Part shown: one piece after another, positions 5,601-53,044 of the stretch | How the letters are laid out: each line of letters begins with the position of its first letter | Numbering within the stretch: the first letter of the stretch is position 1 | Assembly: GCF_020921035.1 (NCBI RefSeq) | Contig: NC_063158.1 | Location: 4,508,001 to 4,572,000, forward strand | DNA: 64,000 bases | Direction: 5' to 3' | From: Rhodamnia argentea | Taxonomy: Eukaryota > Streptophyta > Magnoliopsida > Myrtales > Myrtaceae | The notes under the pieces: generated by a model | The model's database searches: none | What the model saw: only the letters and a program-made list of their open reading frames with translations | What the model was told of the DNA's origin: nothing | Program-made: the position numbers and the translations under genes

Positions 5601-6120
5601 GAGGATAGCGACGGAGCGAGAAAAGACCAAAACCTACGGACGTATTCAATCCGAAATCGAAATCGAAATCGACACCAAGTAAATCATTTCAATATCATCT
5701 GGACAAAAAAAAAAAATCTATTTATCATAATTTTTTTATGAGAGGGTCCAAAAGTAGTGGTGGGAAAAGAATGAAATGGGGACCCACGGAACAAGTTGTA
5801 GAGGGGGGGAGGCAAAGCAGGCGGTTCACGTTAATAGAGGACAGGGGGGCGGGGGGCGTTGGAAAAGCGACACATCAGGCAAGTGACCAGCAAAACGACA
5901 AAATCCGATGACGTCACCGGTCTTGCCTTTGTAATAAGGGAAAGCCCCCGGAATTTGGAGCACGTGTTTTTTGCGGCCAACGCACCAACTTGCCGCGATT
6001 GCGGAACTTTCAAAGAAGCTGATAATAATAACAACAAAATCCAAATTTAAAAAAAAAAAATGAAATGGGAAAAAGAGGACAAAAAAAAAAAGGGAAAAAG
6101 AAATTTTTTTTTTTCGGCCC
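2700..6120. other. Long intergenic region upstream of the ERF gene
   Basis: About 3.4 kb with no supported gene. It holds A-tracts at 2777-2808, a (CT)n tract at 5071-5088, a strongly purine/pyrimidine-biased stretch at 4620-4760, and near the 3' end the ERF promoter. Open frames at 3962-4324 and 4509-4862 (minus) have no recognisable domain and biased composition, so they are treated as chance. I see no RNA gene. Confidence 0.5.
5909..5966 (+). promoter_or_regulatory. bZIP/bHLH-type motifs in ERF promoter (TGACGTCA, CACGTG)
   Basis: A perfect palindromic TGACGTCA (C-box/CRE, the core of as-1-type TGA-bZIP sites) lies at 5909-5916. A G-box CACGTG lies at 5961-5966. Both sit 200-260 bp upstream of the putative TATA box of the ERF gene. 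In plants such motifs bind TGA/bZIP and bHLH (MYC-type) factors. That agrees with the jasmonate, ethylene and salicylate responsiveness of ERF group IX genes, but occupancy here is inference. Confidence 0.4.
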
Positions 6121-6165
6121 CGAGACCAAATATCGTTTTTGGCCAAGATGCATGCATCTCTCGGG

Positions 6166-6174
6166 CTATATATG
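6166..6174 (+). promoter_or_regulatory. Putative TATA box of the ERF gene
   Basis: The sequence ctatatatg lies about 140 bp upstream of the chosen ATG at 6310. With transcription starting about 30 bp downstream, the ATG at 6139 would lie outside the mRNA, and the ATG at 6310 would be the first in the transcript. This supports the shorter protein. Confidence 0.55.
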
Positions 6175-6309
6175 CTTCGCTACTCTGCGATCTTCAAAAG
6201 TTCCATCGACCTTAGAACTCCTGCCACAAAAAAAAAATCGGATCTTTCCCGTTTTAGCAAACTCTCGAAACCCGAAATCACTGCCAAGAGTAGCACTCGA
6301 GCAGCGATC

Positions 6310-7134
6310 ATGGCGGTGGAGATGTTTCAAGTGCCGGATCTAGCGTTCCTCGACTCCGTCCGGAGTTACCTTTCCGAGGATTCCGAGTGTTGGCCGTGCG
6401 AGCCGCCGGCCCGAAACTGCTACGGCGCTGGAGCCCCGGCGTTCCGCCGGAGCACCAGCTTCAGCAGCCTGGACCCGTGTCTGACTGAGACCTGGGGCGA
6501 ATTGCCACTCAAGGAAGATGACCCCGAAGACATGGTCCTCTACGGGGTCCTCCGCGACGCCGTCACGGTCGGATGGGCGCCGTTTCAGCTGAGCGGGCCG
6601 CCCGATGCCCGCCGTGCCGGGTTGGGGATGACCCAGGTGGTTAAGCAGGAGCTGGCTTCTTCGCCGGATTGCGCCGCCGCAGCTGCAGCCCCTCCGACGG
6701 AGAAGGCGGCCGTGGCGGCGGTCCCGGCGAAGGGGAAGCATTACAGGGGGGTGAGGCAGCGGCCGTGGGGGAAGTTCGCGGCGGAGATTCGCGATCCCGC
6801 TAAAAACGGAGCTCGGGTTTGGCTCGGGACTTACGAGACCGCGGAGGACGCCGCGCTGGCTTACGACTGTGCCGCTTACCGGATGCGCGGCTCGCGGGCG
6901 CTGCTGAATTTCCCGCTGCGAGTCAACTCCGGCGAGCCCCACCCGGTTAGGGTGACTTCGAAGCGGTCGTCGCCAGAGCCGTCGCCATCCTCCTCCTCCT
7001 CCTCCTCCTCCTGCTTATCCTCGCTGTCGTCGGAGAACGAGGCCTCGAAGAGGAGGAAGAAGGCGGTAGGGCCGGCGGGTCGGGCGACGGCCCAAGCCGG
7101 GTCGGAGCAAGTGGGGGGAACGCCGATGCCGTGA
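6310..7134 (+). CDS. Ethylene-responsive transcription factor, ERF group IX (ERF1A/ERF2-like)
   Basis: Intronless gene for a 274-residue nuclear transcription factor. A single AP2/ERF domain spans about residues 145-203 ([46 protein letters not shown]). It has the Ala and Asp positions that mark ERF-type rather than DREB-type domains, which bind the GCC box. The N-terminus carries FLDSVRSYL and the acidic [18 protein letters not shown] motif, both shared with Arabidopsis ERF1A/ERF2 (group IXa). The domain is followed by [10 protein letters not shown] and a basic KRSS segment, then a serine run and KRRKK (likely nuclear localisation). The coding region is GC-rich compared with its surroundings. 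The start at 6310 is chosen because an upstream in-frame ATG (6139) precedes the TATA box. Homologues act as activators in ethylene/jasmonate defence signalling; the exact orthology is not resolved. Confidence 0.93.
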
Positions 7135-16365: not shown

Positions 16366-18979
16366 TCAGATCCTATTGATCCATCGTTCTAGTCTTAGCT
16401 GCTTCATTGGAGGTCCAAGAATGGGTTTTCTTTTCTGAGGACACTTCCACTTCCCAGCAGACTCCTGCACATCAAAATTGCTCCGGAAATTAGTTATTTC
16501 CGATAGTGGCCTCATCTTGCCTTCGTCCTCTATAGCAGCTGACGAAACATTTCTTTTAGCGTGCGAGCACTGGTGCAAAGCGCTCCGTGGCCCCATCAAT
16601 TCATCACTTGCACTTGTAGTTTCCTTCCTCCTTACGGAAACAAAATCGGTGCTGTCATTATTTCTTCGATTGTTTTCTTTGTCATGATCTCCGTGGGTTG
16701 ATCTTCTCACTGAAGCTTGATCAACTGGAGATAAGCTCAAATTGTCTTCAAGCAGGGTGTGAGCAACTTCCCTACTCTGGGCCTTCACTCCCGAGACCTC
16801 TTCCAATCCACCAATCAACTCCTTACGAGCTTTTCTTTTATCGTTGCTTGAGTTCCAATTGATGTTGGAGTGGAAACAGATAGCTTCTTCAGAATGAAGT
16901 TGCTTCGGCCTCTTACTATTACAATCCTGGTCATTGTCAGGCAATGCTTTAGATTCCATCCTTCCATCAACAATTTCAGGGGAAGGAATCTGAGGTAAAA
17001 GACGTTTGTCCTCTTTAGATTTATTGCCAACCTGGAAACGATTTTCATGGGTTTAGAAACTTAAGTATCTTGGCTTTTTCTTTTAACGGAGAAACTTAAG
17101 TATCTCGTTGTCCAAGAACTATTTGTTCTAAACAGAGAAACACAGAATTGAAACCGCCGATAACTTTGGATGACTACACTAGCCTTTATCAATTGTAAGC
17201 TGTACTTCCTAAACATCCATACTGAAGGAACAAGGGAAACAAACAAAGATCACCTCATCCTGAATTTGCTGATATTCTTGCTTGAGATCTTCATGAGAGC
17301 TGCTACAGAGGGCAGAGTTCAACCGTTCATTGATTCCCATGCCACCATCTATTCTATCACCTGAAGAGTTACGCTGATTGTCTTCTTTTTCTCCAATAGC
17401 CTCTTCAAGAATCAAGTCATCTTTCCCATCCCCACTTTCCTCAACTGGAGATCCTGGGAACATGCTTAATTCTGGAGATTCGTAGACATAGCTTGAGAAC
17501 CAATTTGTTATGTCGGGAGGCTCTGACAACAGGAAACAACTCATTTTAGAACATAATAAATATCTGGATACATCCAACCCACAAAGAGACACACATCACA
17601 CTGATGTTTCAGCTTGCTGGGAGACCTACAAATGAGTAACTGCCAAGTTTCATCACTCATATACAGCCACTTAGAAATCTTAACAGCTTCAAAGAGGTGA
17701 AACATCGGTGCCTTTAATATATGAAAGAAGCTACACCAACCAGAGAGTAGCAAAGGTGGGCTCAGAGAATCTGCTATCTGCACCAGAAGGGGAAAATTAC
17801 GTATCATCAAGAATGAATACTGAGCTTTGAAGTCATATATAGTTGAACAACAACCAGTGAAGAAACACAGAGAGGAAAGCTGATTATAAGAACAAAAGTC
17901 TGTGTTATGGAAGACCCATGGGGATCATTTACCATATGATCACAAAGTGGGTTTTTTTATCAAAACACATAAGCATTACGCCAGACCAATTGCTACAATG
18001 GCAATCTCAATGCATATTCTAACTTGACAGATAGAAAACCCAATTCTAAACACAAAAGAATGTGGATCAATACCTTGGTCAGAAATTGATCTTCACGCTC
18101 TTGATCTATGAATGAGCCAGCACCATTATTCACAAGTCCATTGTTGTGCGGTGCCTCACTGGCACCAGCAACATCACTGTCTTTCACTTTGGTAACTTCC
18201 CCTAAACTCTCATGCTCTTTCTTGCCCTCACCAGAAACAGGCCATTCTTTCTTGCATTCACTTTCTATGGAGACAAACTCTTTGCTGTGTTCACTCAACT
18301 CGGGTGACTCATAAACATAACTCAAAAACCATTCTCTGAGATCGGGAGGTTCTGCATCAATCAAGCAAGAATAAGCATGAGAGCATTAAAGTAGAAATCG
18401 TTTTACCACTTGGAGAAATGGAAAAATCGATTCCGTTCTGCATAATACTGAGAGATTGATAAATCAGAACCTTAGCAAATTAATACATACCTGAAATTTG
18501 CAAAGATGACTCAAAGGATTCTGGAACCTACAAAAGGAGTAATTTTAAAGGGTGTTAGCTTAATCGAAAAGTTTCTTGCCAGAGATAAAAGCACAACATG
18601 AACCCCAACAAAAAGAAGGAACTTTTTGAACGCATGAAGCCTATCAGCGAGCTAGACGAAATTAACTCATTAACTTCAACAGTAACTGTATCCAGCAAAT
18701 CACCTCTGTTGGAGACTCTTCTCCATGCTTATTGCTCCCAAAATTACTGGTGAACTCTAGAGCGCCCACTTGGTCTCTGCCTCTGATACAATTAGAGTTT
18801 TGCGAAGCCGCTTCTTCTTCTCCTCCTTTTTCCCTATCGTCAACACCGAACCCATTGTTCTCGTGTACGCTCTCCTCAAGAGTAGAACCCAGAAAGTCCT
18901 CATTTGGACCCAGTGAAGGTGACTCGTATACGTAGCTAGAGAACCATTTCCTAATATCGGGAGGCTCTGCGCATGACAT
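16366..18979 (-). CDS. Unknown plant protein with three WFxSYVYESP modules and a KEN box
   Basis: Six exons join to 520 codons plus a stop: 18704-18979, 18491-18527, 18074-18351, 17741-17777, 17254-17522 and 16366-17031. All are GT-AG. Three large exons (276, 278 and 269 nt) each begin with the same motif, EPPDI-R/T-x-WFSSYVYESP (Trp12, Trp112, Trp217), and continue with an acidic, Ser/Asn-rich, probably disordered region of about 80 residues. They are separated by two linker exons of exactly 37 nt. The last exon encodes a basic, polar tail containing DKENN (KEN box, residues 417-419), RPLSEITN (473-480) and a C-terminal block WKCPQKRKPI plus LGPPMKQLRLERWI. No signal peptide, membrane span or enzyme domain is visible. 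KEN boxes are APC/C degrons, so a cell-cycle role is possible, but this is inference. I do not recognise the family. Confidence 0.8.
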
Positions 18980-19336
18980 AGCAAGCGGAAAAGATCAGAT
19001 TTTTCCCGTCGATAATCAAGCGCTGATGAAGGGAAAAGAAGGCATGAAAGTGCGATTTCTTAAGCTATGTAAGCGTAGGAAGAGGTGCGAGCAACACCCA
19101 CCAGAGAGGAGCGAGAGCGACCAGGAAGAAGCTGAAATCTGAAAGCCGAATGCTGAGTTAGAAGCTGAAAAACAAAAGTAATAGAGAGAGAGCGAGAGAG
19201 AGAGATTTGGAACAACATAGTAGTTAGCATCTGAAATTGCAGCTAAGACGGTGAAGATGATGCGCAAATTCGTACCTGTGAATCGCGTTCGCTGAAAGGA
19301 GTTTTGGGTTTCATCAGAGTTGGGCTCGTCTCTTTC

Positions 19337-19378
<42 letters not shown>

Positions 19379-24025: not shown

Positions 24026-24128
24026 CGAAACTTCATCCGTTCAACACCACCCGGTTTCAACTTGATCCTCTCTCTCCCACACTTTCTCTCTCTCTCTCTC
24101 TCTCTCTCGAGCTCGTGCAAACGCTTCA

Positions 24129-25733
24129 ATGGCGATCAGTGCTGTCAATCTTCACATGTTTCAGGCTAGTGGTGGTGGAGCTAGTTTCAAGCGTCGCTTC
24201 TCACCGTTAAACCCTTCGGCATCGTCAGCCACCGCCGTCAGACCCATCACCTCCACCGAGTCAACTCGGAGACACCTTGCCAACCTCGACCGCCTCCTCC
24301 AAAACCAGAAGGTATCTCCGCCGACCTTACCGCACCCGCAAGGGCCGCAAGAACCAACTCACCAGGCAGATTTTGGGGTCGACACGTCGTCGTCGTCGTC
24401 GGAGAAAAGGGGCAGAGGACCGTTGGACCTCTTGAACTTGGGTCGAATCTGGCCCGAAATTAAGGCAGCGGCGGAGGAGATGTCCCCACGCCACCTCGGC
24501 CGCCTCCGGCGGCTTTTGTCAAAGACGCCGGAGTATTCCCCGAGGAACAGCCTCGGCAGCCGGTGGCGGCAGTACCATGGCTGCGACGACTGGTTGGGCC
24601 TACTTGATCCGCTTGACGAGAACCTCCGGCGGGAGGTGATCCGGTACGGTGAGCTCATACAGGTGGCCTACCAGGCGTTCCACTCAAACCCCGCCATGCC
24701 AACAGAGGCGGCGCCGAAGCCCCACCACGTGGCGCTGCCGGATAAGTCTTATAATGTGACGAAGAGCCTGTACGCCACTTCCGCGGTCGGCCTCCCCAAA
24801 TGGGTGGATGATGTTGCTCCGGACCTTGGCTGGATGACGCAGCGGTCGAGCTGGATCGGTTACGTAGCGGTATGCGACGACGGGAGGGAGATCCAACGGA
24901 TGGGGCGGAGGGACATCGTGATCGCCCTGCGAGGGACCTCCACCTGTCTCGAGTGGGCCGAGAACTTTCGGACCAAGCTCGCGCCGATCTCGAGCACCGA
25001 AGACCCCAAATCCAAGGTCGGATCCGGGTTCTTGAGCTTGTTCAAGACCCGTGGAGCTCACGTTCCGAGCTTGGCGGAGTCAGTCATCGAGGAAGTTCAG
25101 CGGCTTATGGAACTCTACAAGGGCGAGACACTCAGCATCACGGTGACCGGTCACAGCCTCGGCGCAGCACTAGCATTATTATTGGCCGACGAGCTAACGA
25201 CGCGCGTTTCAGAGCTGCCATCGCTCGCAGTGTTCTCTTTCGGAGGACCTCGGGTCGGGAACAGCGCTTTCGCGGACCGGATCCGCGCAAAGAACGTCAA
25301 GGTCTTGAGGGTCGTGAATGATCAGGACGTGATCACCAGAGTGCCCGGGATGTTCCTAAGCGAAGATTTAGAACAGAGACTCAAAGACGCGGTGGATGGC
25401 GCGCTCAAAAAGGGCAAAATGCCATGGGACTCCTACTCGCACGCGGGGACGGAGCTGCGCCTAGACACGAGGAAGTCGCCGTACTTGAAGCCGGACGCCG
25501 ATGTCGCGTGCTGCCACGACCTGGAGGCGTACCTACACCTGGTGGACGGGTTCATGGCCTCGAACTGCCCCTTCAGAGTGAACGCGAAGCGGAGCTTAGT
25601 GAAGTTGCTAAACGAGCAAAGAACTAACGTGAAGAAGCTGTACACGAGCAAGGCCAATGCCTTGACCTTGAATGTCGAAAGGGGGGCGGTCAGACCTCCC
25701 AACATGGCGGGTTGCTTGCCTAGCCCATCTTAA
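24129..25733 (+). CDS. Plastid phospholipase A1 / DAD1-like lipase (PLA1-I gamma type)
   Basis: Single-exon gene for 534 residues. The N-terminus is rich in Ser/Ala/Arg, with few acidic residues over about 60 positions, as in a chloroplast transit peptide. The class-3 lipase domain follows. It includes [29 protein letters not shown], the nucleophile elbow GHSLG (Ser343), [22 protein letters not shown] (Asp400 as likely acid), and [15 protein letters not shown] (His463). The catalytic triad is therefore complete. Relatives (DAD1, DALL/PLA1-I gamma) release fatty acids from the sn-1 position of plastid glycerolipids. Some start jasmonate synthesis; others act in senescence or stress. The substrate here is not predictable. 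The GC-rich coding region and lack of introns are usual for the family. A decayed second copy lies at 33757-34258, downstream of the first RGGA gene. Confidence 0.93.
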
Positions 25734-29160: not shown

Positions 29161-30308
29161 CCATGAACCCTTTCGACATCCTCGGCGACGACGACAATGA
29201 GGACCCCAGCCAGCTCGTCGCTGCTGCCAAGCTGGTCGAGAAGCCAAAGAAGGCCCAGGCTCAAGCTGCCCCGCCGTCTAAGCCGGCCGCCAAGCTGCCT
29301 TCCAAGCCGCTCCCACCTGCTCAAGCTGGTGAGTGAGCTTTGCTGCAGTCTGTTTCGGTTTTTAGCATTGATTTGTTGCTCTTAGTGGTGTGGGATCTCG
29401 ATAGTTATTACCTGTCTTTCAGTTAATTTCATTGTAATGAATAGAGCGGGTATTTAGACAGTGATTCGAGAAGACGTTCCCGCAAACGAGAAATACGAGG
29501 AAGTTTGGAATGATTCTCTGGTGAATTTCTGGTAAACATGGTTTGACACTCTGAGCGAGAAAGATGGAATGCAATTTCATTTCACTTAATTTTCTGCTGC
29601 ATGTATTGTTCTCTAGCTTCAATGTGTTGGCTCGTACTTTCCTGGTTGGATTAAATACATCTGGATGCATGGTGAGTACCTTCAGTTGAAATTACTGACT
29701 GTCAATGCTGAAGTATGCCCTTTCTGTGTTAAAGCGGATCAGTTTGTGACCATCTTTTTTCTCCACTGAGTTTTATGCTTCAAAGACTAGTAAGTTAGTA
29801 CTTTATTTCTTAGCATCAAAGGTATCTGAGCTTTTGCTTGATTGGTCTGTTACTTGTAAACCCGTCTTTCCTCTTTATTACATAAATCAGTGATAATTTT
29901 TCCCAAAACAATATTTGGAGATTGACCAAGCATATGATGATAATCTATGGTAGTGAGGGAAGCGAAGACTGACACTGGGCGGGGCTATGGCCGTGGCCGT
30001 GGAGGTGGTCGTGGTTATGGCCGTGGCCGCGGAGGTGGTCGAGGATATGACCAAGATTCAGGGAACAACGAGGGACCAGCTGTGAGCAACGATGGTTTTT
30101 CTGGGGGTTATAGACCCTCAGAGGAAGGAGATTCTGGAAAACTATCTGAAAGGGGTGGTCGTGGTTTTTCTCGGGGAGGTCGCCCCGGTGGTTATAACAA
30201 TGGAGAAGCTGGTGAAAGGGAGCGTGCAAGAAGACCATTCGAACGCCACAGTGGCACTGGACGAGGGTCGGTATTGTGGACAAGAATGTTACATCTTAGC
30301 AATTTTAG

Positions 30309-30379
<71 letters not shown>

Positions 30380-32653
30380 AATGCTCTCTCACACACACAC
30401 AGAAGGATGCGTGTTTCCAACGCATGCAAGAAGTTAATCGTACACTCAATTATTCGCCCTCACAAATTGTGCTCACTAGATGCAAACGGTCAACCCACAT
30501 ACATGCCCAAAGTTTTGCTATTAATGCTGATCCAAAATAATTGCTTCAGAAATGAGACTAAACGAGATGGATCTGGTCGTGGAAACTGGGGAACTCCTAC
30601 TGATGAAATTGCTCCGTAAGCACCTTTTTTGCTAACTTTTGATTTCTAACTAGTATTGATTTTTTTCCTCTGGGTGATTCTTTTGATCAATTGATATTGT
30701 TATTTTGTGACGCGCAGAGAGACTGAAGAACCTGTCATTGAAGTCGAGAAAAATGTGGGATCTGAGAAGCAGCTGGCTGGTGAGGATGGTGCAGATGCTA
30801 GCAAGGAGAATCCTGTGAATGAACCAGAAGAAAAAGAGCCTGAAGATAAGGTAAATCTACCGCTTGCTCGTGGATCATCTTTAGGGATCAGTAGGCCTCT
30901 CTGGGCTGCACCCTGTATTCTGTGACTGTGTCATGGTCCAACCCTTTTCTTATGATCACGTCGTTTTGCGTAGTTTTGATAAGCTGTTTCTACTTTCTAG
31001 AACATGATCAATCTATGGAGAGAAGCTCGATTTGGCCAAATGCATATTTTATTCATTTAGTATGGGTTGATTGTTTGGCTTTGTCGTGCGGAGTGTTTTG
31101 ATCTGTTTATCGAGAATACTTGAGAATGCATAGAAAGCTGAAAGTTTCATGGCTGAAAAGCTCGATTGTGGCAATTATACGGCAATAGCGGAAGGAACCT
31201 CTGTTATATTCACATTATTAGAAAAAGCTGAGGCAGTAGTACCACCTGAATAGGGGAAGTATTTCTCTACGCTTAACTTCCCTTAGTTTCTCTCCATTTC
31301 CATCCAGTCTTCTAAGTAATGATCTTGGCTGCGGCTACTTTTCTAAGAAGCAGAATTGTTGCAAGTGCTCAGACTACCTCCCATGCAGCTTGTATTGTTC
31401 TTTTTTTTCTCTGATGCTCATGAATAAGAGAAAATGTCAGGATGATTCTGTGAGGGATGATCCGGAACAGTTTATAGCTTTCCATCTTTCTTTTTTTTTT
31501 GTCCTAAGATGAAAATATATGCTGGCTTGCAAAGGGACTCCTGGCATGCTCTTAGAAGAGGAATGCTTCAAGTCCTTGGAGATTGATATTGTTGGGGTAT
31601 AGGTTGTTGAGATGTTTAGAATTGCAATATCCCATAGTGCTTTGGCTGAGAATTGAAGAATAGTGTTTGCTATTTCTGTATACGAGTATATCAACCAATC
31701 TGCCTTAGGGATGTTGACAAGGTTTCTTTTGTAAGTTGTAGGTGATGTTTGCTTAGCCTGTGGTAAGTAGGGTAGGGAGCTGCATTTGTTACTTTATTGG
31801 TCGAAGTTACATTATTGGCCAGACAGACTGAAAAAGGATTGTTTATTCAAGTTTTGTTGGAAAAAGGTTTTATCCTAGTCTATCTGTTTGATCAGCCACC
31901 CTTTGGATTCGTTTTATAAGATTGTTGTTGACAGCCATTGATGTTTTGACCTATTTGACACTTATTTTTCCAACTTATTTAGGAGATGACATTAGAAGAG
32001 TATGAAAAGGTCCTTGAAGAGAAGAGGAAGGCATTGCTTGCGCTGAAGTCTGAGGAAAGGAAAGTAGAGTTGGACAAAGATTTGAAGTCCATGCAACAAC
32101 TCTCTAGCAAGAAGGGTAACAATGAAATCTTTGTCAAGCTGGTGAGAGTCAAGAATTGCTAGTTGATTCTGTTTAATATTTTAATTATTGCTTGCTGAGA
32201 AATGTCGATACTAAGCAAAGCATTTTTGTAGGGATCCGAGAAGGATAAACGCAAAGAGGCTGCTGAGAAAGAGGAGAAAGCCAAGAAGGTTTGCTTGTCT
32301 GTTATCTTTTTCCTTAAGAAGTTTAGAGATTTGAGATTACTTCATGTTCTTAGATATCTAATTGAAGATACCTCCTTTTCACGTACTCATGTCTCCACAT
32401 AGGAATTGAATGTTGAAAGTGCGACGCTTTATCAGTGGTGTCTCCTCATATGCATGTATTCTTTTGTCTGTAGTCTGTCAGCATAAATGAGTTCCTGAAG
32501 CCTGCTGAAGGGGAGAAATACTACAACCCAGGTGGTCGTGGGCGAGGCCGCGGCCGTGGTTCCAGAGGTGGCTATGGTGGTGGCTATGCTAGAGATGTCT
32601 CTGCTCCTTCGATTGAGGATCCTGGCCAGTTCCCCTCCCTTGGTGGGAAATGA
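29154..32653 (+). CDS. RGG-repeat RNA-binding protein (RGGA/HABP4-SERBP1 family), copy 1
   Basis: Seven exons join to 360 codons plus a stop: 29154-29328, 29954-30266, 30550-30615, 30718-30850, 31983-32141, 32232-32288 and 32474-32653. The N-terminus MNPFDILGDDDNEDPSQLVA is the Stm1/SERBP1-type head, and an Ala/Pro/Lys-rich stretch follows. Exon 2 carries RG/RGG repeats (GRGYGRGRGGGRGYGRGRGG). GRGNWGTPTDE begins the HABP4/PAI-RBP1 domain, with EMTLEEYEKVLEEKRKALL (from residue 230). The C-terminus has a second RGG box and ends in FPSLGGK. Arabidopsis RGGA proteins bind mRNA in the cytoplasm and nucleus and affect drought and salt responses; animal SERBP1 and yeast Stm1 bind ribosomes. The intron 2 donor is GTCGGT (GTAGGT in copy 2), and that intron holds a (CT)n(CA)n microsatellite. 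Confidence 0.93.
30315..30402 (+). repeat. Compound (CT)n(CA)n microsatellite in RGGA1 intron 2
   Basis: A pure CT run is followed by a CA run and then a second short CT/CA block. It lies about 50 bp downstream of the splice donor of intron 2. The paralogous intron at 37353 has only a degenerate pyrimidine-rich stretch at the same place. Confidence 0.9.
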
Positions 32654-35776: not shown

Positions 35777-38700
35777 ATGGCAACCATGAACCCCTTCGAT
35801 ATCCTCGGCGACGACGACAATGAGGACCCCAGCCAGCTCGTCGCTGCTGCTAAGCCGGTCGAGAAGCCGAAGAAGGCTCCGGCTCAAGCTGCCCCGCCGC
35901 CGAAGCCGGCCGCCAAGCTGCCCGCCAAGCCGCTCCCCCCTGCTGAAGCTGGTGAGCGATCTTTGCGCAGCGCGTTTCGTTTTTTTTTTTAAGCATCGGT
36001 TAGCTGTTCTAGTGCTGTGGAATCTTGAAAGTTAATATCTTTCTGCTCATTTGAGGTAAAAAAGAACTCATTAGCTCGCCGAATATGATGCGATGAAATG
36101 AATAGAGCTTGTATGTAGTTAGTGATTTGAGAAGATGTTCGCGCGATTGAGAAATATACTGAGAAATGGAAGAACACTTTTAAAATTTACTGGTAAACAT
36201 GGTTTAACTCTTTGAGCGAGAAATCTGGACTGCAAGTTCATTTCAGTTAGTTTCGGTGCGGCATGTGAAATTGGTTGTCTGCAATGTATTCCTGTAAGGG
36301 TTAGACTTGGTGATTTGTTTGATGATATGGTAGCTGAATCCGCCGGATTTGTGGTTGCAAATCCCAATGAAGAGTTGGTTGAGATTTTTAAGGTACAAAT
36401 TCTCTTTGTTGTATTGAATATGGCTGAAAGTAGACTTGAGTACCTTAAGCTGAATGTTCTCTGTCATCGCGAAAATAGCAACTTTTTGTATTAAGAAACA
36501 TCAGTTTGGACCAGCTGTTGGGTGTCATACGGCACTTGGAATTTTCATTCGTTGCAGCCTCTTATTATCCCTCTCGTAGACAGAGAGGTTTCTGAATTGG
36601 TTAATTCTATTGGTCGTTGTGTGTTTATGAATTTTGCAAATGATTTATGGTTTTCTCGATTTGGTTCTGCCTTAATTACAAAAAATAGGGGGAAAAGAAA
36701 GGGAAGCAATGAAGTGTCATTTTATTCTTGGAGATCTAAGAACTAGTTTCTTCGCAGCAAGTATAAAAACTAGTTTCATCATACTTCATAGTCATATTCT
36801 CAATTGACCCTACTGGGGGCAGTTCTGTGCTTTAAACGCCATTTACTCGAGTTAATACTTAGTTTTCTCTCTAACTTTGCCCTTACCTGGGGTGGTAAAG
36901 AGTATCAGAATCTTTTGGCTCAAACCTTTTGCTATTTTTAAACCTGTCTTTCTGTTTTGTCTTTATGCAATGAAAATTATTTCCGAAATGTGGCATTGGA
37001 AATTGACCGACTACATGTTATCTTTTATACTAGTGAGGGAAGCAAAGAGTGATACTGGGCGTGGGCGTGGCCGTGGAGGCGGCCGTGGTTATGGCCGTGG
37101 TTTTGGCCGTGGAGGCGGTCGAGGATATGACCAAGAGTCAGGGAACAGTGAGGGAGCAGCTGGCAGCAATGATGGTTTTTCTGGGGGTTTTAGAGCCTCA
37201 GAGGAAGGAGATTCTGGAAAACTATCTGAAAGGCGTGGTGGGCCTCGGGGTTCTTTCCGTGGAGGTCGCCGTGGCGGTTTTAACAATGGAGAACCTGGTG
37301 AGGGGGAGCGTCCAAGAAGAGCATTTGAACGCCGCAGTGGCACTGGACGAGGGTAGGTATTGTACACCAAGAATGTTACATTTTAGCTTCTAGTTTCTCT
37401 CTCTACCCTCCCCCCACACTTCTCTCTCTTTCTCTCTCATGTCCACGCTCGCACATACAGGCTCGTCTTTCCAATGCAACCAAGAAATTGATCTCACATT
37501 CAATGCTTGCCCTACCACATTGTGCACGCATGCATGCAAAAGACAACGCACATGCACTGCCCATGTATTTCTTTCGATGCTGATCCAAATATATTGCTTC
37601 AGAAACGAGATTAAGCGAGAAGGAGCTGGTCGTGGAAACTGGGGAACTCCTACTGATGAAATTACTCCGTAAGCATTTTTTTTTTTTTTGGCTAACTTTT
37701 TAATATCTTGCTATTATTGATTTTTTCTCACCATTGGGTGATTTTTTTAATTCATTGATGCTTTTATTTTTCTGTGCTCAGGGAGACTGAAGAACCTGTC
37801 GTTGAGGTTGAGAAAAATGTGGGATCTGAGAAGCAGTTGGTTGATGAGGATGGCACGGATGCAAGCAAGGAGAATCCTGTTAATGAACCCGAGGAAAAAG
37901 AGCCTGAAGATAAGGTAAATTATCTTGTGGTCGTGGGTATTCTTTATGGATCAATAGTCCTCTTCTTGGCTGCACTTTTTATTATGTGACCCAATGAAAA
38001 TCCAACCCTTTTCCTATGATGCCTTATCTCAGGTGTTGTGGTAAAACTGTTTCTACTTTCTAGAACGTACTCGATCAGTTGGTCGAAGCTTAATACTGCC
38101 AAAGAAACATTTTATTCATTACGGGGGATTGAGTGTTTGACTTTGTTGTGCGGAATGTTTCTCTCTATATTTCAAGAATACTTGAGAATGCATAGAAAGC
38201 TGAATGTCGCATGGCTAAAAAGCTCAAGAATGGCAATTATTGGGGCAATATGGAAAGAATCTTTGTTATATTCACTTTTTGGAAAAAAGCTAGGGCAATA
38301 GTGCCACCTGATGAGGGAATTACTTCTCTAGCTTTGAGTTCCCTTAAGTTCTCCACTTCCACCCGGTCAATTGGAGCACTAATGTAGCTACTACTGTTCT
38401 AAGTGTCTAAACTGTTTCCAGTTCCCTGACTAGCTACCATGGGGCTTGTATTTTTCTTTTTTTCTCTGATGCCATGGAGCTTGTATTTCCATTTTTTCTC
38501 TGATGCCCATGATAGGCAAAAACGTCCGAATGATTCCTGGTGATGAATGGTTCTGACATGAAAATTTATGGTTGGCATCGCAAGAAAACTCCCGGCGTGC
38601 ACTTGGAAGGGGAATCCAAGTCCTTGGAGATTCTCTGTTAGAATATAGATTGTTGAGATGTTTAGAACTGCAAGATTGCCTGGTGCTTTGGCCGAGGATT

Positions 38701-46850: not shown

Positions 46851-49482
46851 CTATAGACGCTCACAGGCGAAATTCGTGTGTTCTAGCATAGGTCCAATCC
46901 TAACCAGCTTAGGTATGACCACATTGTTCCGAACAGAACAAACAACTGGATTTTCCCACTGCAGAAGTGAGCCGACCAGGTTTGCCCTTACTGTCAAAGG
47001 GAAGATACGAGGCCACCTCTCACTCTCGTACGATTTTAGTGCGCTTTCAACTGACCCATTCCCAGAATTAATCGCGTTTGCGAGTTTTCTAGACAGAACA
47101 ACTGCATCCTCCAGTGCACAGCACGCGCCTTGCCCAAGATTTGGTGTCATTGGGTGCCACGCATCCCCTACCAGAACAACACTACCAGATGAAGCAGAAG
47201 GGCTTACCATAGGCCACAACCACCGATCAACCAGCGGAGTCCTAATGATTGTGTCCCTTGGAGTACGATCGATGATGTTCAATAGCTCTGAAGGCCAGTT
47301 TCGAACTAGTTCTCGTGATTGATTCTTCAATATGGATGGATCAGTGATCTTCGGACCTGTAATAAGACATGCTCATTCATTTCTAATTCTTCCGTTCACT
47401 TATCAGTACATAGAGAGATGCATTCCAGGGGAGCCTACTCTATTATGCTAGCTCTTAGGATAAGCAGGACTTGTGCCAAACTATACATGGAAATCTTAAA
47501 GAAAGTGATGGAGCCAACATTTTAAGCTCGATTTTACATGTCTAGCTACTTGAACGCGATTAGGAGCGAGATTAACCTGGAGAAGGGCTGTTGAAGCAGA
47601 CAAACCAGTAAACTTTAGTTGGAGATATAGGGACATATCCGGCACGCAACCCTCTACCGTAGGTGTAAGTCACCCGTGGTTCACATGGTTGACCATCAGG
47701 ATAAAATCCTAGTCCACGGAAAGCACAATAGCCAACATACTTAGGCTCGGAGAAGCCCAGCCATTTAGCTACTGGAGATCGAACACCATCACAACCAATC
47801 ACAATCTGTTGATTGACAGGAAAGTGACTAAGGTCATAGGCCATTTATTAACCATACGAAAGCTGGAACATGTTAGAAAGAAAAAATGCAATGCCCTTTA
47901 TCGAGATTAATGTTTTTGTCCCAGATCCTAAAATTTGCATTCCTACGATGTTTCAGTGAATAGCTCAAATGAAAGGGTAAGCATATTGACCTTTGCAGAT
48001 AGACGAGTCCCATCCACAAGTTCCAACAGAGTTTCTCCATTTTCACTTCTGCCAATCTTTGCTAGCTTTGATGAAAACCGGATAGCCTCAGGTGGTAGCT
48101 GATCAGCAAAAGTCCCCAAAAGTATGCTCCTCTCCACTGCACGGACCTCTTGGCTACGCGACGTTGATTCATGCAAAAGTACCCAGAGTTGGTCGATAAA
48201 ATACCATACATCAATTGAAGAGAAAACATGAAGTTCTTGAATTTCTCTTAGCTGCCGTACCTGTCATCCTCATCCTTGAACCTAAATGAACGCAGCTCCC
48301 TCCCATCTTCTGATTTTACTACCATCCTGCACAGCTGGTACAATGAATAAGGTTAGAAAAGAATAAGAATCATCAGCAGCCATTTTTTTAGATGAATTCT
48401 AAATTCCAATAATCAACAGCGGTTCCCTGAAAGTTGTTCAGACTTACAAACATCTCTGTATGAAGGTCACTGGACAAACTTGAGCATAAATAGCTTCCGT
48501 CATCGACCTTACTAGGAGAACAATATGCTGGGTTTATTGAGAAGACCCAACAATACAAAATCCCAATATCGCGTGCTTGACTTAATTATCTAGTATCCAA
48601 CTTAACTTAACCCCAAGTTTATCAATTTGGTGAAAAAATTCATGAATGGTCTGGAAGTTCCTGCCCCGGTGAGCTCAGTACCAGACTCCAACACAAGTAC
48701 TATGTACACCAAGCGTGCTGTATCGGAAGGGGCAACAACCCGGAAAACCGAACTTGAACATCTGGTAATCGAAGAACTGATATATCAACAATCAACCACA
48801 AGGTTATCCACATAACACACGCACAGCAATGTGTAGGCAGTTTATAATTTTTACCAAACACCAGGACAACAGCGCTTGTAGCTTGGTTAAAGAAAACATA
48901 CCCTTGGATTTCCAGAAATTGAGTCCGGAGTTCACTCCCAACCCCAATCGCATCCAGTACTCGCCACCCATTCTTGAACAGAGTGAGTGAGGTCCCGCCA
49001 GTCCTGAGCGACTCCGCCTGCTCAAGCACCAGGGACTTGACTCCAAGCCTGCGCGTATTCCAAATTCAGACGTCAGCGACCTCACCCAATCTCACAATAC
49101 GCAACGTCGTCAGCACTAGATGAATCCGATCAACAGAAAACCAAGCGCGCCGAAAGCCCAAAGCCTAACGACAACAAAATCGACGTAACTGAGATGGAAT
49201 GAGTAGTAATTTGAATGACCTGTGAAGCGACAGCGAGGTGGCGAGACCCGCGATGCCAGCTCCGACGATGACGATGTCCTCCTTCAAAACCTCGGCCTCA
49301 GCCTTCACGGAGAGCGCGCGAGGAAGTTCGTTTCTGTTCCCGCTGCGAAGTAGAAACAAGCGCCGGATCCGCCGAGACGCGTAGGTTCGCAATGAACAGG
49401 AAGAAGAAGAAGAAGAAGTGGCCGATGCGACGGAGCTCGAGCTCGAGCTCCAGCGAAGAAGGCATGGAGAGACTGAGGCCAT
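46851..49482 (-). CDS. FAD-dependent monooxygenase, plastid-targeted (zeaxanthin-epoxidase-like group)
   Basis: Six exons join to 457 codons plus a stop: 49220-49482, 48902-49048, 48326-48261, 47991-48153, 47577-47805 and 46851-47356. The third exon is 66 nt. The first ~60 residues are Ser/Arg-rich without acidic residues, as in a plastid transit peptide. The FAD Rossmann motif DIVIVGAGIAGLATSLSLH follows (GAGIAG at 74-79). Next come VIGCDGVRSPVAKWLG, the DG motif of class A flavin monooxygenases, and VLVGDAWHPMTPNLGQGA (GD motif, 353-366) with CALEDA. Class A enzymes hydroxylate or epoxidise aromatic or isoprenoid substrates with NAD(P)H and O2. The closest plant relatives are the MO1/At5g05320-type proteins, whose substrates are not established. 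All key motifs are intact. Confidence 0.9.
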
Positions 49483-51690: not shown

Positions 51691-51728
51691 CCCACGGAAA
51701 CCACTAGGAACTGTCCCAACAGCCAACG

Positions 51729-53044
51729 ATGATGACAACTACTGATGGCACAACCACCGGGTCTTCCGGAGTCGACTATGAGGCCATCCAGACTGTCACC
51801 GCCTTCACGGTGACTGAGCCGCGCCTGACCCAGCCCGTCTCGGCCGCTGACCCTGCCGGCACCTGGATTTTCCAGAAATGCTTCAACGTGGTTCTGTACT
51901 ACAGAACGATGGTGGAGGGCGACACCGGCTGGGCCTTCTCCGGGTGGGTCAAGGACTCGCTGGGGAGAGCTTTCACCGAGCGGCCACTCCTCTGTGGGCG
52001 GCTCCGGAGAGGCGAGGGTGGCTGCGGAGGAGAGCTGGAGATCGTGTCAAACGACAGCGGTGCCAGGCTCATCGAGGCTAGGATTGGCGTGACTCTGGAT
52101 GAGTTCCTCGGCTCTGAGAGGAGGGCAGATGGTGAGGCTGAGCTAGTGCATTGGAAGGACATCGACATGCAAGATCCTCAGTTCTGCCCACTCTTTTACA
52201 TCCAGGTAAAATTGAGTAGTCCTAGACTGCTTCGGTCTCCTAAACTCATCCTAGACACGAATCATGGTCACCTGGGTCTCGTGTAAGTATCCGATTTTGC
52301 TGTCCTAGGACACTTCAATCAGTGGAGGAGGACAGGAGAGTTTATTAGAACTACCTTAGCAGATGAAGGTTGTGATCTTTCTCCCACCCTCATTCTGTTT
52401 GTGGTTTTCTTTTCCAGGTGACAAACTTTCAGTGTGGTGGGTATTCAATTGGGATAAGCTGTAGCCTGTTGTTGGCAGACCCAATCTCTATAATTAGTTT
52501 CATCAGCAGATGGGCCACCATCCATAATGATCTGAATCTGATTCCTGGAGACAGTGCACCCAAGAAACCCATCTTCTATCTCTCGAACATCAAACGTCCT
52601 GACTCACCATTAACCTTTCTCACCCCTAGTCCTTGCCCAAAGACCGTCCAGACATTGGTCTTCAAAGTCAATGCCGTTGGCGCGAAGCCCGGCGGGGAAC
52701 TGAGCAAGGCGGTCACGCTGCTGTGCACCGAGGAGGCGGAGAAGAAGCTGAAGAACAAGCTGGGGTCGAAATTCGCCTTGCTGGTGAAAGAAGAATCGGG
52801 AAATGTTAAGGCAGAGAGCGTTGAGAAAGGTGGAGCTGTTCAGGTCGAGACCGAGATGGTCACAAGTGAAGTAAGTTTGGAGAGTTTGGGCTTGAGCGGT
52901 GTGGCGTTCAGGAGAGGAAACGAGCCTGCTCTGGTCTCACATTGGGTTGCATCGGGTGATGGCTTCGTGATGGTGGCGCAGTGCGGCGGCGACGACGACG
53001 GCATGTTGGGATTTAATGTCTTCGTCACAATTCCTAGAGCGTGA
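51729..53044 (+). CDS. BAHD acyltransferase-like protein lacking the catalytic His and DFGWG motif
   Basis: Two exons (51729-52205 and 52418-53044, GT-AG, phase 0) join to 367 codons plus a stop. The overall layout follows BAHD/HXXXD acyltransferases: an N-terminal VTEPRLTQPV strand, a GRLRRGEGGCGGELEI region with EFLG, then CGGYSIGISCSLLLADPISI followed by WATIH. In the family this last segment reads 'GG..IG...SHxxADGxS..xF...WA'. Here the catalytic His is replaced by Leu176 although the Asp (180) remains, and the following Gly is Pro. Near the C-terminus the usual DFGWG is replaced by AFRRGN before EPALVSHW. At 367 residues it is also shorter than typical BAHDs (~430-460). It should not acylate by the usual mechanism. 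CER2-type proteins are a precedent for non-catalytic BAHD-like partners, but membership in that group is not shown. Confidence 0.85.

Follow-up and report, generated by a model that had tools for sequence, protein, structure and literature searches.

We predict a minus-strand gene of eight exons in a 64,000-nt stretch of Rhodamnia argentea DNA (the window), and on balance we favor the reading that it encodes an uncharacterised, largely disordered plant protein, with three acidic docking modules that arose by duplication of an exon pair, followed by a basic C-terminal part. The N-terminal three fifths of the protein would have been made by duplicating one pair of exons, of 37 nt and about 270 nt, and each pair would encode a module of 100-105 residues that is acidic, for the most part disordered, and carries a conserved stretch of ~20 residues near its start. 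In this stretch, the pattern D-[IL]-x-x-W-F-x-x-Y would align Ile/Leu, Trp, Phe, and Tyr along a single face of a short helix (i, i+3, i+4, and i+7), and then runs into YVYESP. We infer that the three copies dock on a folded partner, or on more than one copy of this partner, much as PhixxPhiPhi motifs do when they fold upon binding, which would make the protein multivalent, and that the basic C-terminal exon gives a second contact, possibly together with nuclear entry and turnover in the cell cycle (KEN). The exon pairs, their phases, the motif, its retention against synonymous change, and its uniqueness in the genome are evident at the sequence level.

Gene model and the repeated exon pairs

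The predicted gene runs from 19314 to 16366, and its exons measure 39, 37, 263, 37, 278, 37, 269, and 666 nt in the order of transcription, giving a stop-free spliced frame of 541 amino acids. All of the exon borders are predicted from sequence (Table 1); the seven introns, of 135-296 nt each, are all GT-AG. The preliminary description had placed the gene at 16366..18979, a span outside which the first 37-nt exon and the start exon fall. The true start may be an in-frame ATG at 19341, 27 nt upstream of the start exon. A (TC)23 array with 86% matches, reading GA on the gene strand, adjoins the start codon of the gene, and the alternative ATG sits inside the edge of this array.

Table 1. Predicted exons of the gene, with neighboring features of the window (phases are given as entry to exit)
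Feature	Position in window	Strand	Length and phase	Sequence or remark
Start exon	19276..19314	-	39 nt, phase 0	MKPKTPFSERDSQ; donor CAG/gtacga
Module 1, 37-nt exon	19102..19138	-	37 nt, phase 0 to 1	ISASSWSLSLLS(E); predicted
Module 1, large exon	18704..18966	-	263 nt, phase 1 to 0	(E)PPDIRKWFSSYVYESPSL...
Module 2, 37-nt exon	18491..18527	-	37 nt, phase 0 to 1	VPESFESSLQIS(E); predicted
Module 2, large exon	18074..18351	-	278 nt, phase 1 to 0	(E)PPDLREWFLSYVYESPEL...
Module 3, 37-nt exon	17741..17777	-	37 nt, phase 0 to 1	IADSLSPPLLLS(E); predicted
Module 3, large exon	17254..17522	-	269 nt, phase 1 to 0	(E)PPDITNWFSSYVYESPEL...
Last exon	16366..17031	-	666 nt incl. stop	net charge +6; KEN; end QLRLERWINRI
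(TC)23 array	19329-19375			
AP2/ERF factor	6064-7134	+		Pfam
Class 3 lipase	24066-25733	+		Pfam
RGG-rich frame	29944-30540	+		no Pfam match
RGG-rich frame	36856-37356	+		no Pfam match
FAD-binding monooxygenase piece	46851-47372	-		Pfam
BAHD-type transferase pieces	51708-53044	+		Pfam

The repeat unit is a pair of exons, a 37-nt exon (phase 0 to 1) and a large exon of 263-278 nt (phase 1 to 0), present three times. The preliminary description had reported three large exons sharing one motif at identical phase, and this is confirmed, as all of them enter in phase 1, leave in phase 0, and open with EPPDIRKWFSSYVYESP, EPPDLREWFLSYVYESP, and EPPDITNWFSSYVYESP, respectively. Its proposal of exon duplication is likewise supported, but the unit is the exon pair, in three copies. 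Inside each pair, an intron splits the glutamate codon of EPPD, the G of which is the final base of the 37-nt exon, and the 37-nt exons 1, 2, and 3 end with LLS, QIS, and LLS just before this split glutamate. Since the conserved stretch straddles the intron and begins in the 37-nt exon, these exons are the heads of the modules; their earlier description as linkers was right in the length of exactly 37 nt, but not in the role, nor in the number, which is three instead of two. The repeated exons have the equal phases and the similar coding sequence expected of exon duplication, with the similarity resting on the motif part.

Because each preceding exon ends in phase 0 and each large exon starts in phase 1, an exon of 3n+1 nt is required at all three junctions. 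Dropping one 37-nt exon in silico leads to a premature stop after 82, 122, or 222 residues, and dropping a whole exon pair keeps the frame to the end, with 441, 436, or 439 residues. Candidates for the 37-nt exons were filtered as stop-free, frame-legal AG...GT segments with a pyrimidine-rich acceptor and at least 60 bases from the gap ends, and exactly one such candidate was found in each of the three gaps preceding the large exons (the three 37-nt exons of Table 1). At least one filtered candidate occurred in a share of 0.043, 0.073, and 0.170 of 300 dinucleotide-preserving shuffles of gaps 1, 2, and 3, and the gap preceding the last exon, where none is needed, contains no filtered candidate (expected share 0.053). 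A second 37-nt candidate appears in gap 2 when the acceptor filter is removed, and a looser scan, allowing GC donors and gap edges, gives 3, 3, and 1 candidates in gaps 1, 2, and 3. When the ending L(x)[LI]SE was demanded too, 0 of 300 shuffles passed in each of the three gaps, a figure that favors the model because this ending was picked after the peptides had been seen; with exon lengths of 22-61 in steps of three, the shuffle means for the same ending were 0, 0.0067, and 0.0067. As whole peptides, the products of the 37-nt exons show no excess of similarity over shuffles (507, 479, and 196 of 1000 score at least as high), and they are tied by length, phase, position, and last residues, not by significant overall similarity.

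In the MEPDB article, plant microexons are those of 51 nt or less, and an ultra-short class of 1-15 nt is stressed (PMC12409088). The three predicted 37-nt exons resemble these microexons in lying within the 51-nt limit, in a length that is not a multiple of three, and in breaking the frame when skipped, but they are longer than the ultra-short class (PMC12409088).

Conservation and uniqueness of the motif

The conserved stretch reads [LI]SEPPD[IL]xxWFxSYVYESPxL across the three modules. Copy 2 departs from the string first described, EPPDI-x-x-WFSSYVYESP, in having Leu for Ile and Leu for Ser. The motif tryptophans are W33, W133, and W238 of the 541-aa protein, and they lie 100 and 105 residues apart, as do the Trp12, Trp112, and Trp217 given earlier. 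The module pairs 1-2, 1-3, and 2-3 have 15, 16, and 15 of the 19 motif positions in common, and the third positions of their comparable shared motif codons agree in 6 of 14, 7 of 15, and 4 of 15 cases. For the same pairs, dN is 0.13, 0.09, and 0.12, and dS is not estimable, which we read as saturation. The local score of the spacers is reached by 437, 38, and 301 of 1000 shuffles; spacer similarity is hence unsupported for pairs 1-2 and 2-3, with a borderline trace in pair 1-3. Similarity between the introns of the modules is not supported either, only words of 9-11 bases being in common, and a tblastn alignment of module 1 with module 3 (97 columns, 44%) is carried mainly by the motif. Given the low dN beside an inestimable dS, and the spacer and intron comparisons, the duplications look old, and the motif, which appears to be under selection, was held as most of each module was free to change. 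The earlier picture of a conserved aromatic motif with diverging spacers is supported, apart from the trace in pair 1-3 (38 of 1000 shuffles).

The DNA pattern for WFxxYxYExP matches three times in the window versus 0 matches in 100 shuffles, which makes the motif of the large exons certain. In the whole genome (346,658,060 bases in 74 contigs), it matches four times, namely three times in the gene and once in a fragment, and EPPD.xxWF matches three times, always in the eight-exon gene; the backwards control gave 0 for both patterns. These genome searches were exact and would overlook intron-split or more diverged copies. At the protein level, a genome search with E up to 10 returned five places, of which four belong to the eight-exon gene and one is the same fragment, on C4. 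Within the same genome, the C-terminal end also gave two weak matches (E 2.18 and 2.56), which were rejected, as tblastn on both loci did not uphold them and returned a single unrelated match of 17 residues (E 5.2) in an opposite-strand frame.

A search of the genome DNA with the gene found three places, namely the gene itself, a piece on C4, and a piece on C8. The C4 piece (16044730-16045057, 85% identity) comprises the closing bases of the first 37-nt exon together with its intron and the beginning of module 1. Its ~330 matching bases sit in a 389-base interval flanked by inverted repeats, within an element of ~1 kb (about 16044400-16045422) with six inverted-repeat pairs of 27-150 nt that are 74-88% complementary; no target-site duplication around the element was made out by eye. 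This element looks like a transposon with a captured gene fragment, and the retained intron suggests capture from DNA. The C8 piece (20321767-20321848) has 82 bases, extends from the final part of exon 7 into its intron, and is 89% identical.

Protein properties and searches for relatives

The modules 1, 2, and 3 have net charges of -12, -13, and -17, and the last exon has +6. By the charge-hydropathy line, all five protein parts tested are classed as disordered, and the content of order-promoting residues in the modules is low (0.24-0.27). Together with the confidence values of AlphaFold2, these predictions support the disordered spacers proposed earlier. The AlphaFold2 model of module 1, made with the three modules aligned, shows a helix only at residues 5-10 (IRKWFS); the mean pLDDT is 77 for the first ten residues and drops to 50-67 in the later blocks. 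It is a weak model (mean pLDDT 56.8 and pTM 0.16, from an alignment of three sequences). In copies 1 and 3, the motif has a moderate helical moment (best 0.48 and 0.43); that of copy 2 is low (best 0.30), and there the beta-type moment exceeds the helical one in five of six windows. Helix formation by the motif is thus a weakly supported prediction.

The last exon, modelled alone, has a mean pLDDT of 49.6 and two helices at exon residues 62-80 and 87-97. Its C-terminal QLRLERWINRI is amphipathic and has the highest helical moment of the whole protein. The KEN (in HDKENN) is at residue 438 of the 541-aa protein, and the exon also contains basic runs; the KEN, the basic runs, and the QLRLERWINRI end are each a weak hint. 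Each module has an ESP site (S41, S141, and S246), among nine S/T-P sites in total. Two RxxL strings are located at residues 389 and 469, and the D-box RxxLxxxxN is absent, neither string having Asn at the ninth place.

The spliced 541-aa protein has no match in Pfam or in NCBIfam, a prokaryote-oriented set, and the full protein has none in the PDB, in agreement with the preliminary description, which could assign no family. Among four exon frames, one gave a single Pfam match below the threshold (12.4 versus 27 bits), and no DNA-binding domain was found by Pfam in the exon frames or the spliced protein. The motif profile, searched against the PDB up to E 10, gave seven weak short matches, of which six are to bleomycin hydrolase (E 4.5-4.9), a folded enzyme that holds EWFSEYVYE; neither p53 nor another activator is among the seven. 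In a prokaryote-oriented contig collection, 30 and 71 stretches fit a pattern and, in a viral contig collection, 2 and 1 did; none was confirmed in either, and both results have no bearing on conservation in plants. The alignment behind the first prokaryotic and the first viral search (30 and 2 stretches) overran the exon ends slightly into the introns. Exact peptide strings did not find the protein in 5.39 million open papers, a collection that leaves figures, supplements, and most subscription journals outside.

Orthologues in other plants are expected, perhaps as unnamed proteins. Five of the ten neighboring frames scanned have a Pfam match (Table 1), and the two RGG-rich frames, ~7 kb apart, look like a tandem gene pair for RGG-type RNA-binding proteins. 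The neighbors (AP2, class 3 lipase, FAD-binding, BAHD transferase, and RGG-rich frames) may resemble the gene order of At4g15760-At4g17500, and At4g17000 of Arabidopsis is a possible orthologue by position. At4g17000 is named as a flank of the RLM3 locus and reportedly has premature stops in six accessions (PMC4232680), which would argue against strong constraint on it.

Competing explanations and significance

Proteins with multiple short linear motifs that grew by exon duplication are a known kind, and the protein described here is a member that is unnamed in the texts searched. It resembles them in the repeated short motif, the diverging spacers, and the introns of equal phase, but differs in that the unit is an exon pair, a phase-1 intron splits the motif, and a 37-nt exon always leads. 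The closest point of comparison for the motif itself is p53 TAD2, in which Ile50, Trp53, and Phe54 form a PhixxPhiPhi pattern on an amphipathic helix and face MED25; I50A and F54A nearly abolish the binding of MED25, and W53A only weakens it slightly (PMC6222444). The two are alike in the I/L-x-x-W-F spacing, the acidic disordered surroundings, and the short helix predicted for module 1. In contrast to p53 TAD2, the present protein carries its motif three times, with EPPD and SYVYESP invariant, and Pfam found no DNA-binding domain in it; no homology was detected, and the resemblance is an analogy, not kinship.

This resemblance raises the explanation that the protein is of the coactivator type, with modules acting as p53 TAD2-like acidic activation domains that contact MED25, TFIIH, or a TAZ-domain acetyltransferase. 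It would account for [IL]-x-x-W-F in all three modules, for net charges from -12 to -17, and for the helix predicted in module 1, with the equal spacing of Ile50, Trp53, and Phe54 in p53 TAD2 (PMC6222444), but PhixxPhiPhi is a loose pattern, and EPPD and SYVYESP, both invariant, are left unexplained. The invariant Trp of the modules also fits poorly with the slight effect of W53A on MED25 binding in p53 (PMC6222444), and both the negative Pfam search for a DNA-binding domain and the seven weak PDB matches, none to p53, speak against it. We consider it unlikely as such; it is a special case of docking, and the chances given to the two overlap. Also compatible with docking is a cell-cycle regulated substrate of the APC/C, in which the modules would be sites of docking or phosphorylation that are recognised during mitosis or meiosis. 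The KEN of HDKENN at residue 438 and the ESP of every module among the nine S/T-P sites are in its favor, but a three-residue KEN can arise by chance, the RxxL strings at 389 and 469 are not extended to RxxLxxxxN, and no relative was found in Pfam, NCBIfam, or the PDB; this, too, we hold to be rather improbable.

The invariance of YVYESP exceeds what fuzzy acidic motifs need and weakens the docking reading; furthermore, the motif need not be a docking helix, because the similar EWFSEYVYE occurs in folded bleomycin hydrolase. The repeats might instead fold into a small domain or associate among themselves, as about twenty conserved residues including Trp, Phe, and two Tyr, and the match within a folded enzyme (E 4.5-4.9), would allow; the low-confidence model of module 1, the scarcity of order-promoting residues (0.24-0.27), and the spacers, which retain at most a borderline common pattern, make this quite unlikely. 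A decayed gene or a transposon-derived repeat is very improbable: two gene fragments lie elsewhere in the genome, one of them between inverted repeats, but the frame is open across eight exons, the motif is kept though synonymous change is not estimable, and its exact pattern outside the gene occurs only in the captured fragment.

A more specific form of the interaction reading is possible, though we doubt it. The motif would be an unnamed plant interaction motif, split by an intron and headed by 37 nt, the duplication of the pair would have produced a trivalent scaffold for a dedicated partner domain, and splicing of the pairs would tune the valency. The general reading that we favor, in which an uncharacterised, largely disordered protein has three docking modules ahead of a basic C-terminal part, would, if right, illustrate clearly how multivalent disordered proteins can grow: a pair of exons with the same phase at both ends is copied, and the motif stays constant as the remainder diverges. 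As a pair can be removed without loss of frame, a change of valency by splicing becomes directly testable, and the motif, present in 347 Mb only in the gene and one captured fragment, is specific enough to act as bait in a search for the partner. Exons of ~37 nt must be located before such proteins can be read correctly.
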